A stretch of DNA of 64,000 bases from positions 1,054,001 to 1,118,000 of the forward strand of contig NZ_SOCA01000001.1 of NCBI RefSeq assembly GCF_004364345.1, given 5' to 3'. Positions within the stretch are counted from its first letter, which is position 1. The number at the start of each line of letters is the position of its first letter. This DNA comes from Prosthecobacter fusiformis. Its GTDB lineage: Bacteria > Verrucomicrobiota > Verrucomicrobiia > Verrucomicrobiales > Verrucomicrobiaceae. Below, piece after piece: positions 23,304 to 26,636 of this stretch. The notes under the pieces are model-generated. The model saw only the letters and a list, made by a program, of their open reading frames with translations. It had not been told where the DNA came from and ran no database searches. A program made the translations under genes and the position numbers.

Positions 23304-23337
23304 TTGTGATTCCCCGTATCCGCATCATGCTGTGCGC

Positions 23338-24045
23338 ATGACTCATACTTGCGCGGTGACCGGCAGGCAGCATGGCAGCGGAAAATTGTGCCCCTTGGCG
23401 GCGCTGCCTCCTCAAATAGCCGATCTCATCCGGGCCCGGTCACCCCACCTGGATGACAGTTCCTTGATTGGCCCTGATGTGCTAAACGAGGCACGGCTGG
23501 ACTACGTGCGCCAGTTACTGCAAAACCAGTTAGGTGAGCTTTCTCATCTGGATGAAGAAGTGCTGCAAAGCCTGCACCGGCATGAAGTGCTCAGCGAGCA
23601 TCCGGAGAAAGAGGAGGACATTGAAAACTCTACACTGACCGTGGGCCAGAAGCTGTCTGACAAGCTCGCTGAATTTGGCGGCAGTTGGACTTTCATCATG
23701 TCCTTCGGCGGCTTTATGGCCGTCTGGATCTTGCTCAATGTCATCTTCCTGGCCAATCGTGGCTACGATCCTTATCCGTTCATTCTGCTGAACCTCATCC
23801 TTTCCTGTCTGGCATCCCTGCAGGCTCCCGTGATCATGATGAGCCAGAACCGCCAGGAAGCCCGTGACCGCAAGCGTGCCGAAGGAGACTACAAGATCAA
23901 TCTCAAGGCGGAACTCGAGATCCGCCATTTGCATGATAAGATGGACTACATGCTCCACCATCACGCCACGCGCCTGATGGAAGTGCAGCAAATCCAGTTA
24001 GAACTTTTGAGGGAGATGGCCAAAACAAGGACGCAGGGTGAATGA
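23338..24045 (+). CDS. DUF1003 membrane protein
   Basis: About 235 residues with the DUF1003 core: GQKLSDKLAEFGGSWTFIM leading into two transmembrane helices (GGFMAVWILLNVIFLA and ILLNLILSCLASLQAPVIMM) and the following MSQNRQEARDRKRAEGDYKI with HLHDKMDYMLHHH. The family has no established function. I start at ATG 23338; a GTG lies two codons upstream. Its stop overlaps the next gene's ATG by 4 bp, so it is translationally coupled to the AcvB-MprF fusion and may assist it in the membrane. Confidence 0.88.
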   Translation: MTHTCAVTGRQHGSGKLCPLAALPPQIADLIRARSPHLDDSSLIGPDVLNEARLDYVRQLLQNQLGELSHLDEEVLQSLHRHEVLSEHPEKEEDIENSTLTVGQKLSDKLAEFGGSWTFIMSFGGFMAVWILLNVIFLANRGYDPYPFILLNLILSCLASLQAPVIMMSQNRQEARDRKRAEGDYKINLKAELEIRHLHDKMDYMLHHHATRLMEVQQIQLELLREMAKTRTQGE

Positions 24046-26636
24046 TCGTGAAAAATGACAGCTGGCAGATGACGTTTCTTCCCTTACCTCCCATGCCTCC
24101 CCAGGTCCTCCGGCTGATTTTCCTCCTGTCTTTTTCGCTGATCATCTCTGCGCACGCACAAGACGCCGATGATGATGGCCCCACACCCAAGGCGAGCGTA
24201 CAGCTCACTCATGGAATGGCCAAAATCCGCCTCTATGAGCCGGATGAAATCCCGCCGCGCGCCATTGTCATTTTTGGTTCCGGTGATGGTGGCTGGTCAC
24301 CTTGGGAAGATTCCGTGGCCCATTGGCTACGCGGTCATGGTGCCTATGTAGTTGGATTTGACCTGCGGGCTTATGCCACCAAGGATTATGATCAAAGAAC
24401 GTTAGGCCTAGACATGGCCGCCCTGGCGGCTGAAGCAACCCGGCGCTGCGAGGGGGCGGAGGTGCCGATCATTTACAGCGGCTGGAGCATGGGAGCCGTC
24501 CAGGCTGTGGCTGCTGCCGGTGGCAAAGAACGGCCCGCCAGTCTGGCCGGGCTGCTGCTCTTCAGCGCAGACAGCCGTGGGCGCTATGGATTGCGGGAAA
24601 AAGATGAACTGGGCATCACCCCCCAGGGGCCGGGGACGTTCGGCCTGTCAGAGTTCAATGCGGCCATGAAAAATCTGCGCGTGGCCCAGTTCCATGGCGG
24701 TGCGGATTTCATGGCTTCTACCGCCTGGGTGCAGAGCCTCAAATCCCCCAAAGCCCTGTATCTGGTGCCTGGGGCCAATCATGGTTTTGATGGTCCGGAC
24801 GATTCCTTTGAAGAATGGGTGGCCAGGGGATTTAACTGGGTGCTGGGGGACAATGGAGCTTCATCCGCACCACCGGTGCATGACAGCAGCCTGCCGTGGG
24901 GACTTTCCCCTCTCTGGCCGGCAGCGGCCCTGGCCATAGTGCTGTCGCTCATTTTCATTTTCTCGCGCAAGCATTCTCTGCGGATTTTAGTCTGGGCCGT
25001 CACCATCATGGCCTGGCTGAATTTGCTGGAGGCCATGACGGTCAAGCCTCCCGAAGCCCTGGACTGGATGGACAACTGGCTGCCGCTGGGCATCAGCGAC
25101 AATAGCCGCATTCTCCTGCTTTTTTCCGGTATCGGTCTTCTAGCCCTGGCCCGTGGCTTGCGAAGGCACAAGCACATGGCCTGGCTGCTGGCGGTGATCA
25201 TGCTTTGTGTCTCGGTGATCGTCCATTTGACACGCGCTTTCCAATGGCACCACGCGCTGGCTGCGATGGTCCTGCTGGCCCCACTCATCCGCTGGCGCTC
25301 AACCTTCCTTGCACGGTCTGATGCACCATCTCTTCGTTTTGCCTTCATTAGCGTGCCTGTGCTTGCCCTGAGCCTGCTGATTTATGGAGTGACCGGCCTG
25401 CGCCAATTCAGTGAACGGGGGGAATTCGGCGAGGCTCTGAGCTGGACAGACTGCGTGAACGGCACCGCCTCCGCCATCATCCTGCAAAAGAGCAATCTGG
25501 ACACGGATGGCAGCCGCAATGTGCGGATCTTTCTCTCCAACGTCCGTGGTGGCAGTCTGCTCAGCGCCCTGGCGGTGGTGATTCTCATGCTCAGGCCAGT
25601 CTTGAAAAAACGCATGCCCGAGGCCACCGCTGAGGAAAGGGACCGCGTCGCCCGTCTCATTGACCAGCATGGGAAGGATCCCATGGACAGCTTTGCCCTG
25701 CTGGAGGACAAGCGGTATTTTTTCAGCCAGGATTCTTCAGGCTTCATCGCCTATGCCCTTTGGCGAAAATATGCCGTCGCCCTGGCAGACCCTGTTTGTG
25801 CCCAAGACATGCGGCCCGCGCTCATCATCGAATTTACCACCTACTGCGCCCGCCAGGATTGGGAACCCTTGTTTTACTGCGCCCATGTCAGCAACCGCCA
25901 GCTGTATGAAGAGGCTGGATTTGTCACCGTCAAAGTGGGTGAAGACGCCCGGCTGGAGACCGCTGATTTCAAGCTGGAGGGCGGCAAATTTCAGAACCTG
26001 CGCACGGCCCGCAACAAGGCTCGTAAAAACGGCCTGACCTACCAGTGGTATGATGCACGACCGGCACCGGATCACGGCCTGGAGGCTCAGTTGCAACTGC
26101 TCTCCCAAGACTGGCTGGAAAACAAACATGGCGGAGAAATGACCTTCGACCTGGGCAGCTTTGACATCCCGACCCTGCGCACCCATGGAGTCTCAATCGT
26201 GCGCAACCCGGAGGGCCGCATTGAGGCCTTCGCCACGTGGTGGCCTTACGCCCAGGGTAAAGGTCGCTGTCTGGATCTGATGCGCGGACGTGACGAGGTG
26301 CGGGATGTGATGGACTTCCTCATTGTGGAGGCCATTGATCATTTTAAAACCCTCGGCGTAGAACAGGTCAGCCTGGGGAATGCTCCCCTCGCCAACATTG
26401 ATGCCACCCAGGAAGATGCGAGCCTGAGCCGGGAGGAGAGGGCCGTAAAATTTCTTTTCGACAACTTTGACCGCTTCTATGGCTATAAGAGCCTGTTCAA
26501 TTTCAAAAAGAAGTACCAGCCAGAATGGCAAGGCCGCTATCTGGCCTATCAACCCCGCACCCGCCTGGCCATGGTGGCTCTGGCAGTCGCAGGTGTCCAC
26601 CTGCCCCGGGGTTTCAAAGGACTCATCGGATCGTGA
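24042..26636 (+). CDS. AcvB/VirJ-like hydrolase fused to MprF-type lysyl/aminoacyl-phosphatidylglycerol synthase
   Basis: An 864-residue fusion. After a signal peptide ending ISAHAQ, residues about 45-270 are an alpha/beta hydrolase of the VirJ/AcvB kind (FGSGDGGWSPWED; nucleophile in GWSMGAV near 148; His in GANHGFDG near 245). Residues about 285-530 contain roughly seven membrane helices. Residues about 530-850 are the DUF2156 aminoacyl-transferase domain (AYALWRKYAVALADPVC, NLRTARNKARKNGL, FNFKKKYQPEWQGRYLAY). AcvB of Agrobacterium hydrolyses lysyl-phosphatidylglycerol and is encoded near the synthase LpiA. Here both are in one chain, with the hydrolase predicted periplasmic and the synthase cytoplasmic. 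The amino acid used is not predictable. Confidence 0.88.
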   Translation: MIVKNDSWQMTFLPLPPMPPQVLRLIFLLSFSLIISAHAQDADDDGPTPKASVQLTHGMAKIRLYEPDEIPPRAIVIFGSGDGGWSPWEDSVAHWLRGHGAYVVGFDLRAYATKDYDQRTLGLDMAALAAEATRRCEGAEVPIIYSGWSMGAVQAVAAAGGKERPASLAGLLLFSADSRGRYGLREKDELGITPQGPGTFGLSEFNAAMKNLRVAQFHGGADFMASTAWVQSLKSPKALYLVPGANHGFDGPDDSFEEWVARGFNWVLGDNGASSAPPVHDSSLPWGLSPLWPAAALAIVLSLIFIFSRKHSLRILVWAVTIMAWLNLLEAMTVKPPEALDWMDNWLPLGISDNSRILLLFSGIGLLALARGLRRHKHMAWLLAVIMLCVSVIVHLTRAFQWHHALAAMVLLAPLIRWRSTFLARSDAPSLRFAFISVPVLALSLLIYGVTGLRQFSERGEFGEALSWTDCVNGTASAIILQKSNLDTDGSRNVRIFLSNVRGGSLLSALAVVILMLRPVLKKRMPEATAEERDRVARLIDQHGKDPMDSFALLEDKRYFFSQDSSGFIAYALWRKYAVALADPVCAQDMRPALIIEFTTYCARQDWEPLFYCAHVSNRQLYEEAGFVTVKVGEDARLETADFKLEGGKFQNLRTARNKARKNGLTYQWYDARPAPDHGLEAQLQLLSQDWLENKHGGEMTFDLGSFDIPTLRTHGVSIVRNPEGRIEAFATWWPYAQGKGRCLDLMRGRDEVRDVMDFLIVEAIDHFKTLGVEQVSLGNAPLANIDATQEDASLSREERAVKFLFDNFDRFYGYKSLFNFKKKYQPEWQGRYLAYQPRTRLAMVALAVAGVHLPRGFKGLIGS

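Follow-up and report, generated by a model that had tools for sequence, protein, structure and literature searches.

In Prosthecobacter fusiformis, a VirJ/AcvB-family alpha/beta hydrolase and an aminoacyl-lipid synthase domain are encoded within one uninterrupted reading frame, and the product is probably a tethered bifunctional enzyme that writes and erases an aminoacyl phospholipid. The frame lies in the window, by which we mean the whole 64,000-nucleotide stretch of DNA analysed, and all positions refer to it. From the N- to the C-terminus, the protein consists of a signal-peptide-like start, the hydrolase, seven predicted membrane helices, and the MprF-type synthase domain. The gene, its N-terminal part and its upstream neighbour are as follows.

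24042..26636, + strand: hydrolase-synthase fusion gene, a single open frame of 864 aa; 16 intact fused proteins were aligned, including that of the window
24042..24158, + strand: signal-peptide-like N-terminus, aa 1–39
23332..24045, + strand: DUF1003 gene upstream of the fusion (PF06210, 135.7 bits)

Integrity of the fusion gene

The sequence-only reading of this DNA had placed both enzymes in one polypeptide, and this was borne out by matches of the 864-aa frame to VirJ (PF06057) and LPG_synthase_C (PF09924). The signal peptide that it had proposed is compatible with the hydropathy profile, in which residues 21–39 were hydrophobic, and with an AHA preceding QD, a putative cleavage site assigned by eye. 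A downstream in-frame ATG may be the real start codon of the gene. The stop codon of the DUF1003 gene and the start codon of the fusion gene share four bases (24042–24045), and a DUF1003 gene adjoins 5 of the 16 aligned fused genes, the window's included, as a recurrent neighbour. Unfused relatives of the two parts are neighbouring genes whose frames often overlap, as would suit a merger of two adjacent genes by sequencing or assembly error; however, the identical in-frame fusion, with a membrane helix at the junction, was intact in 16 aligned genomes, and five further long frames held both parts. The artefact was therefore rejected as practically impossible.

Hydrolase domain and its conserved residues

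The domain and the positions compared with Agrobacterium AcvB are listed below. Conservation was counted over the 16 fused proteins, which are 45–79% identical to the window's protein, 7 separate divergent relatives, and 2 canonical VirJ proteins; a second alignment (A2) combined 11 of the 16 fused rows with the 7 separate rows.

24189..24851, + strand: VirJ/AcvB-family alpha/beta-hydrolase domain, about aa 50–270 (PF06057; AcvB 9xhm/9xhn; predicted fold)
24279..24296, + strand: SGDGGW motif, aa 80–85, aligned with AcvB Ser269-Gly-Asp271; all six positions invariant in the 16 fused rows
24486..24488, + strand: Ser149, nucleophile in GWSMG (AcvB Ser336); 16/16 fused, 7/7 separate
24498..24500, + strand: Val153, at the AcvB Asp340 position; V, A or T in 16/16 fused, E in 6/7 and Q in 1/7 separate, D in 2/2 canonical VirJ
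24582..24584, + strand: Arg181, aligned with AcvB Asp370; R in 16/16 fused and 7/7 separate, D and E in the two canonical VirJ
24705..24707, + strand: Asp222, putative triad acid; D in 16/16 fused and 7/7 separate, E and D in the two canonical VirJ
24780..24782, + strand: His247, putative triad histidine; 16/16 fused, 7/7 separate, 2/2 canonical VirJ

In a Pfam profile search, residues 75–153 scored 36.9 bits for VirJ PF06057, for which the curated cut-off is 22, and so passed the test on which the earlier assignment could have fallen. The similarity to VirJ is remote, the match covering just positions 3–79 of the 191 in the profile. A search of PDB sequences retrieved AcvB (9xhm) with an E-value of 5.6e-6 for the whole protein and 1.2e-7 for the N-terminal 287 aa. 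The GWSMG motif predicted earlier was present and contains Ser149. His247 aligned with a histidine of the HHF motif in the two canonical VirJ proteins; its equivalence rests on that alignment, AcvB His433 lying beyond the AcvB alignments shown. Dead copies do exist in this family, since the N-terminal domain of AcvB has the fold with no activity shown and that of Brucella VirJ is without the triad, and the domain might accordingly hold or sense something without catalysis. The invariance of Ser149, Asp222, His247 and SGDGGW in all 16 fused rows makes such a dead or structural domain very improbable.

The acidic lysine pocket of AcvB was not found. Position 153 was V, A or T and position 181 was R in all 16 fused proteins, and among the AcvB residues for lysyl-phosphatidylglycerol (PG), Asp271 was retained as Asp82; the alignment with AcvB near Asp370 is gap-free but of low identity. 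At the position of AcvB Trp378 the fused rows had E, K or L, so the Trp of the membrane loop is absent, and at that of Leu379 they had L, I, V or M, the second half of the loop still being hydrophobic. The 'lysyl' in the original description was thus not upheld, because the two acidic positions on which AcvB relies for lysine were both replaced, one of them by an invariant Arg. Even homologues from organisms that make alanyl-PG are said to retain Asp340, so its loss here suggests that the substrate of the hydrolase domain may differ from that of AcvB.

Structural modeling of the hydrolase domain from a two-row alignment gave a mean pLDDT of 64.5 and a pTM of 0.71. The fold matches listed were general lipases, esterases and thioesterases, with monoglyceride lipases and feruloyl esterases close by; AcvB was not among the matches listed, which excludes nothing. 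The full-length model, from a three-row alignment, was poor (mean pLDDT 38.9) and was taken for helix positions only.

Synthase domain and loss of the flippase core

The C-terminal half of the protein contains the following features.

24903..24959, + strand: junction membrane helix, aa 288–306; best 17-residue hydropathy 1.6–2.6 in 16/16 fused proteins
24975..25613, + strand: six further membrane helices, about aa 312–524 (MprF Subdomain 2, TM9–14), from hydropathy and MprF homology
25653..26549, + strand: aminoacyl-lipid synthase domain LPG_synthase_C, aa 538–836 (PF09924; PDB 4v34, 9goe, 5vrv)

The match to PF09924 was complete (246 bits, profile positions 2–298 of 298) and, like that to VirJ, exceeded the curated Pfam cut-off, and the PDB sequence search retrieved MprF/LpiA-type proteins with a best E-value of 9.2e-48; by sequence, the closest solved relatives are AcvB, a Lys-PG hydrolase, and the MprF synthases. 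An invariant Asp745 in a DLMR motif is probably the counterpart of LpiA Asp750. The NCBIfam model of bifunctional MprF, whose cut-off is 600 bits, scored 370.9, and its match began at position 318 of 841, which indicated that the protein lacks the initial part of MprF. No PF03706 match was found in the fusion at E-values up to 1. The proposal that the hydrolase replaces the start of the usual flippase therefore held and extended to the whole flippase core (Subdomain 1, TM1–8). The genome holds two separate PF03706 proteins, and nothing ties them to the fusion gene. Without Subdomain 1, the lipid product may fail to reach the outside.

Acyltransferases exist among alpha/beta-hydrolase folds, and the outer domain might instead be a transacylase that hands the amino acid of the lipid to another envelope molecule. 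A pocket unlike that of AcvB, with Asp340 replaced by Val, Ala or Thr and Asp370 by Arg, together with an eraser fixed to the writer and the lost flippase core, would fit such directed handing-on; however, the nearest characterised relative is a plain hydrolase, there is no known acceptor, and no acceptor-making gene was seen among the compared neighbours, which are mostly without identification. We regard this relay as improbable.

Membrane topology

The seven helices after the hydrolase were assigned from hydropathy and homology, and five MprF chains from the PDB sequence search aligned starting at residues 323–331; the low-confidence full-length model also showed helix positions for the six that follow the junction. 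The junction helix was clear in none of six unfused short synthases (one, G351, was borderline at 1.4). With this additional helix in the fused proteins, the hydrolase would be outside and the synthase inside, as the sequence-only reading had also predicted. The charge of the short loops points the same way: those placed inside carried 2.6–4.8 Lys and Arg per loop, more than those placed outside (0–1.1). The long loop 453–502, by contrast, gives no such support, its basic and acidic residues being equal in number. The odd helix count depends on the weak fifth helix, 402–420 (hydropathy 0.9–1.4), which is supported mainly by MprF homology, and without which both domains would be on the same side.

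Distribution and coupling of the two genes

We surveyed 326 genomes of the order and 387 genomes of the phylum. Dropped before the counts on individual genes were a frame-broken gene (G063), genes at contig ends (G064 and L004), and hydrolases at contig ends (L036 and L050); L035 was treated as the same gene as L003 on the basis of frame length and identities, L003 being used in the alignment (A1) and L035 in the trees. A synthase match was present in 43 genomes of the order sample: 21 with a short synthase, 16 with a full-length MprF, 5 with a paralogue of 380–415 aa only (G013, G019, G046, G467, and G530), and one with fragments (G509). All 21 genomes with a short synthase also had the hydrolase, and 19 had both parts in one intact frame, the remaining two being frame-broken and split between contig ends, respectively. 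A hydrolase match occurred in 42 genomes of this sample, four of them without a synthase match (G001, at a contig end, and the weak G525, G567, and G617). In the phylum sample, 12 of 12 short synthases were fused or adjacent to a hydrolase, and the unfused ones found in the phylum had the hydrolase gene directly alongside, in agreement with the earlier expectation that the two enzymes occur elsewhere as paired separate genes. As to how widespread the fusion is, the 16 intact copies and the five additional long frames were found, and the fusion occurred in three families (f1, f2, and f23) within a single phylum.

Full-length MprF was recognised by its frame length, 855–915 aa (708 aa where the contig ended), and by a hydrolase match lying outside that frame. 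It had a hydrolase match nearby on the same strand in 15 of 16 genomes, one match being weak; adjacency was read from coordinates, and helices were checked for G018 and G302 only. A fusion of the hydrolase to full-length MprF was seen in none of these 16 genomes. For five other full-length MprF genes (L077–L081), the stretches read contained no hydrolase, and the MprF family thus does not require the pairing. VirJ-type matches adjoining no synthase were found in two frames, L044 and L057. Beyond these samples, 48 stretches of viral contigs matched the search pattern and contained no relatives, and a scan of genome contigs with the single protein, a method that picks up close relatives only, gave 14 matching stretches and two loci. 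Among plasmids, 135 records had a match, none covering 80% of the query, and thus no full-length fusion was detected there.

On plasmids of Chroococcidiopsis and Rubrobacter (L063 and L064), a PF00756 esterase gene with no detectable VirJ similarity precedes a short synthase, which shows that pairing with an esterase is not peculiar to VirJ. These loci, and a predicted fold near monoglyceride lipases and feruloyl esterases, would suit a hydrolase that cuts another ester (a lysolipid, a lipoprotein, or an ester-containing antimicrobial) and was fused for joint regulation of envelope defence rather than to undo the synthase. Against this stand the membership of the VirJ family and the AcvB-LpiA precedent, and in the order sample all 21 short synthases come with the hydrolase, which fits a common substrate better than a common stimulus; we consider a different ester unlikely.

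In the phylogenetic tree of the hydrolases, the fused rows formed one side of a branch (support 94/85; 90% of 200 bootstrap trees). In the tree of the synthases, they required two label changes and formed one side of a branch in 13% of bootstrap trees. Long branches occur in both trees. The fusion likely arose once.

Comparison with known systems

In the LpiA-AcvB operon of Agrobacterium tumefaciens (PMC13197417, PMC13135905), an aminoacyl-PG synthase is likewise paired with a periplasmic VirJ/AcvB hydrolase, and the catalytic Ser and the SGD motif are common to AcvB and the fusion. AcvB and LpiA, there two proteins, were shown to bind to one another, with LpiA increasing the membrane association of AcvB, and a cooperative module of synthesis and hydrolysis was proposed (2026; PMC13197417), so that the pairing of the two enzymes is already known; our literature search found no report of a hydrolase-synthase fusion. 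The window encodes one protein instead of two that bind each other, LpiA retains the flippase that the fusion is without, and AcvB has two hydrolase-fold domains and the acidic lysine pocket, which is not conserved in the fusion. MprF of Rhizobium tropici and Staphylococcus aureus (PMC8131360) has the synthase domain and TM9–14 (Subdomain 2) in common with the fusion, in which flippase Subdomain 1 (residues 24–325 in R. tropici; PMC8131360) is replaced by a hydrolase predicted to be exported and one extra helix. LysX2 of Mycobacterium tuberculosis (PMC8974105) is also related to MprF, with a small number of membrane segments (four are predicted) and an unusual topology, but its MprF-like domain is itself outside, whereas in the fusion the synthase is predicted inside and the hydrolase outside. 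The Chroococcidiopsis and Rubrobacter loci resemble the fusion in that an alpha/beta-hydrolase gene is immediately followed by a short synthase; they differ in that the genes are separate, the hydrolase is not detectably VirJ, and a PF03706 flippase-like gene is present.

Proposed function and significance

We favor the bifunctional writer and eraser, and in the mechanism that we infer, as regards both activities, the identity of the lipid and the effect on the leaflets, the C-terminal domain would move an amino acid from aminoacyl-tRNA onto a phospholipid, with phosphatidylglycerol as the candidate, on the inside. Outside, the VirJ-type hydrolase, anchored at the membrane through the junction helix, would cut the ester of any aminoacyl lipid arriving at the outer leaflet, regenerating the lipid and releasing the amino acid. 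The two enzymes would be held at a fixed 1:1 ratio. With a hydrolase in the place of the missing MprF flippase core, the modified lipid would likely be kept at a tightly set level, low or biased to the inner leaflet; local control of surface charge, as originally suggested, is retained as a proposal. More tentatively, these proteins might form a separate class of transmembrane writer-erasers with an exported hydrolase in the place of the flippase, acting on an aminoacyl lipid other than lysyl-PG, as the reversed pocket charge with its invariant Arg would suggest, with the lipid kept on the inner leaflet or its amino acid passed to an envelope acceptor.

The natural fusion in three families, together with the added helix, provides independent evidence for a synthesis-hydrolysis module of the AcvB-LpiA type and offers a one-gene system in which such a module can be tested. 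A hydrolase at the place where MprF has its flippase would question the view that aminoacyl lipids always serve display on the outside. If the favored mechanism is true, opposing enzymes of one reaction would be placed on opposite faces of the membrane in a single chain, and one molecule would allow the cell to adjust its surface charge.

Domain composition of the fusion protein

The gene was read as one open frame of the window:

24042–26636, + strand: hydrolase–synthase fusion gene, 864 aa, one open frame

The sequence-only reading had joined a VirJ/AcvB-type hydrolase and an MprF-type lysyl-phosphatidylglycerol (Lys-PG) synthase in this protein, and at the family level both identities were borne out. 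Pfam searches placed VirJ (PF06057) at residues 75–153, with 36.9 bits against a cut-off of 22, and LPG_synthase_C (PF09924) at residues 538–836, with 246 bits. A search against proteins of known structure matched the N-terminal part to AcvB, the Lys-PG hydrolase of Agrobacterium tumefaciens (9xhm, E = 1.2e-7; 9xhn, 7.2e-6), and a profile built from 18 relatives reached 9xhm at 2.4e-17, with general serine hydrolases next, from 7e-7. Almost the entire C-terminal part aligned with synthase domains for alanyl-PG and lysyl-PG. The model of the hydrolase domain (pLDDT 64.5, pTM 0.71) had an alpha/beta-hydrolase fold; its best Foldseek match was monoglyceride lipase 3jwe_A (E = 6.5e-9), and its top VIA-align Z, 17.1, was to 7d78_D (205 residues superposed at rmsd 3.2).

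An alignment of 16 intact fused proteins, in which the other 15 shared 45–79% identity with that of the window, ruled out an assembly or sequencing artefact as the source of the fusion. One of the aligned rows, L003, was from Verrucomicrobium sp. BvORR106; its contig appeared to be identical to the one from G065, a genome of the family sample.

Active site and substrate

Ser149, the SGDGGW motif with Asp82, Asp222, and His247 were invariant in the 16 fused rows. In seven separate divergent relatives, Ser149, Asp222, and His247 were kept in all, Asp82 in six, and Ser80 in five. Ser149 and Asp82 are the counterparts of AcvB Ser336 and Asp271; AcvB Ser336Ala is described as inactive, and Asp271Ala as causing strong Lys-PG accumulation (PMC13197417). 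Docking in that study placed AcvB Asp340 near the alpha-amino group of lysine and Asp370 near the epsilon-amino group; Asp340 was kept in the homologues named there, and Asp370 was lost in those from alanyl-PG makers (PMC13197417). Whereas AcvB has these acidic residues and Trp378, the Asp340 position was Val, Ala, or Thr in all fused rows (Glu in six and Gln in one of the separate relatives; Asp in both canonical VirJs), the Asp370 position was Arg in all 23 fused and separate rows, and the Trp378 position was never Trp in fused rows. The lysyl part of the sequence-only reading was therefore dropped, and the fusion may handle an amino acid other than lysine.

Membrane topology

Hydropathy and homology gave a signal-peptide-like stretch (residues 21–39), the hydrolase, and then seven helices, whose places were the same in a predicted structure of low confidence. 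The first, the junction helix (residues 288–306), was clear in all 16 fused proteins (hydropathy 1.6–2.6) and in none of six unfused short synthases (four from the same phylum, one cyanobacterial, and one actinobacterial). In one unfused short synthase, G351, a 55-residue mechanical extension overlapping the hydrolase gene reached a hydropathy of 1.4. Short loops assigned inside carried on average 2.6–4.8 Lys and Arg, versus 0–1.1 for those assigned outside; the long outer loop (residues 453–502) had 6.1, offset by 6.4 acidic residues. Because the fifth helix was weak (0.9–1.4), helix parity rests partly on homology. With the junction helix, the hydrolase part of the fusion would lie outside and the synthase domain inside; a synthase with six helices begins and ends inside.

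The six later helices were the counterparts of TM9–14 of MprF. In Rhizobium tropici MprF, Subdomain 1 comprises residues 24–325 and Subdomain 2 residues 334–530, and flipping by Staphylococcus aureus MprF is described as needing Subdomain 1 (PMC8131360). It follows that the hydrolase occupies the place of the N-terminal flippase core of MprF. Consistent with the earlier proposal that the N-terminal domain replaces the start of the flippase, the match to the NCBIfam bifunctional MprF model began only at model position 318 of 841 (370.9 bits, below the cut-off of 600).

Distribution of fused and separate forms

The fusion was intact in 11 of 68 genomes of the family sample and 19 of 326 of the order sample. 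In the family sample, the hydrolase occurred in 15 genomes and PF09924 matches in 17. Fourteen of these 17 had an MprF-type synthase, and all 14 had the hydrolase: besides the intact frames, G063 was frame-broken, G064 was split across contig ends, and in G018 the hydrolase was a gene of its own adjoining a full-length MprF. The fifteenth hydrolase (G001) sat at a contig end, and the other three genomes with PF09924 matches had only a paralogue of 380–412 aa, without hydrolase. Fisher's exact test gave 1.2e-13 for these counts, which come from related and hence not independent genomes. The fused gene of G063 (L040 5907–8598) consisted of frames of 822 and 132 aa, the result either of an error in sequencing or of gene decay.

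In the order sample, a short synthase (>600 bits) was found in 21 genomes, each with the hydrolase; the intact frames were of 852–914 aa, and the two others were G063 and G064. Full-length MprF, assigned by frame length, occurred in 16 genomes (88–165 bits); by coordinates, 15 had a hydrolase match nearby on the same strand (weak in G493, 27 bits), and G522 had only a weak match on the opposite strand. None of these 16 in the 326 genomes was fused to the hydrolase. In the phylum sample (387 genomes), 12 synthase matches above 400 bits were of the short kind, eight fused (including the split G064) and four adjoining a hydrolase. The unfused short pairs L051, L052, L053, and L055 had overlapping frames, hydrolase first, with mechanical start positions. 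Full-length MprF can occur alone, as in five genes (L077–L081) without hydrolase within the stretches examined.

In the synthase tree, fused and adjacent short synthases were set apart from full-length MprF (100/100), and in the hydrolase tree the fused hydrolases formed one side of a branch (94/85). The hydrolase tree favours a single origin of the fusion, a question that the synthase tree does not decide.

Neighbouring genes and other architectures

Directly upstream of the fusion gene, overlapping it by four bases, was a second gene:

23332–24045, + strand: DUF1003 (PF06210) gene

Such a gene also adjoined four more of the 16 aligned fused genes (L003/L035, L031, L032, and L038), lay next to the end of a full-length MprF in L043, and was found near a cyanobacterial cluster (L063). 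It is a recurrent partner of these synthases. Plasmids of Chroococcidiopsis (L063 3055–7042) and Rubrobacter (L064 1734–5489) carried, in order, a PF00756 esterase, a short synthase, and a separate PF03706 gene; as in the fusion, a short synthase is paired with an alpha/beta-hydrolase, but one from another Pfam family.

The sole hydrolase match in the genome was that of the window; the genome had a second LPG_synthase_C gene (385 aa; G000:C10:167266–168165, – strand; L002), and paralogues of 380–412 aa were found in several family members. In G018, at L044 5032–8877, a second, free-standing hydrolase copy preceded genes for a histidine kinase and a sigma-54 response regulator, neighbours that hint at envelope-stress control. 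A 594-aa frame (L057 5586–7370, – strand) had a VirJ match at residues 373–453 and no other Pfam domain at E up to 0.01; it is perhaps a further architecture of this hydrolase, or its mechanical start lies too far upstream.

Proposed function

The pairing of synthase and hydrolase and their opposed action are already known. AcvB is described as binding the synthase LpiA mostly via its catalytic domain, with its membrane association increased by LpiA, and the authors proposed a cooperative module (PMC13197417). We found no report of the fusion, the accompanying loss of the flippase core, or the added helix in searches of open-licence PubMed Central papers. Two PF03706 proteins encoded elsewhere in the genome may or may not be flippases of the lipid of the fusion; PF03706 was also present in 11 of 14 control genomes. 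The best reading, from sequence comparison and with support from the AcvB–LpiA precedent, is that the fusion would be a writer–eraser of an aminoacyl lipid in a single chain, in which the C-terminal synthase would aminoacylate the lipid inside the cell and the hydrolase domain of the same chain would cleave the ester outside.
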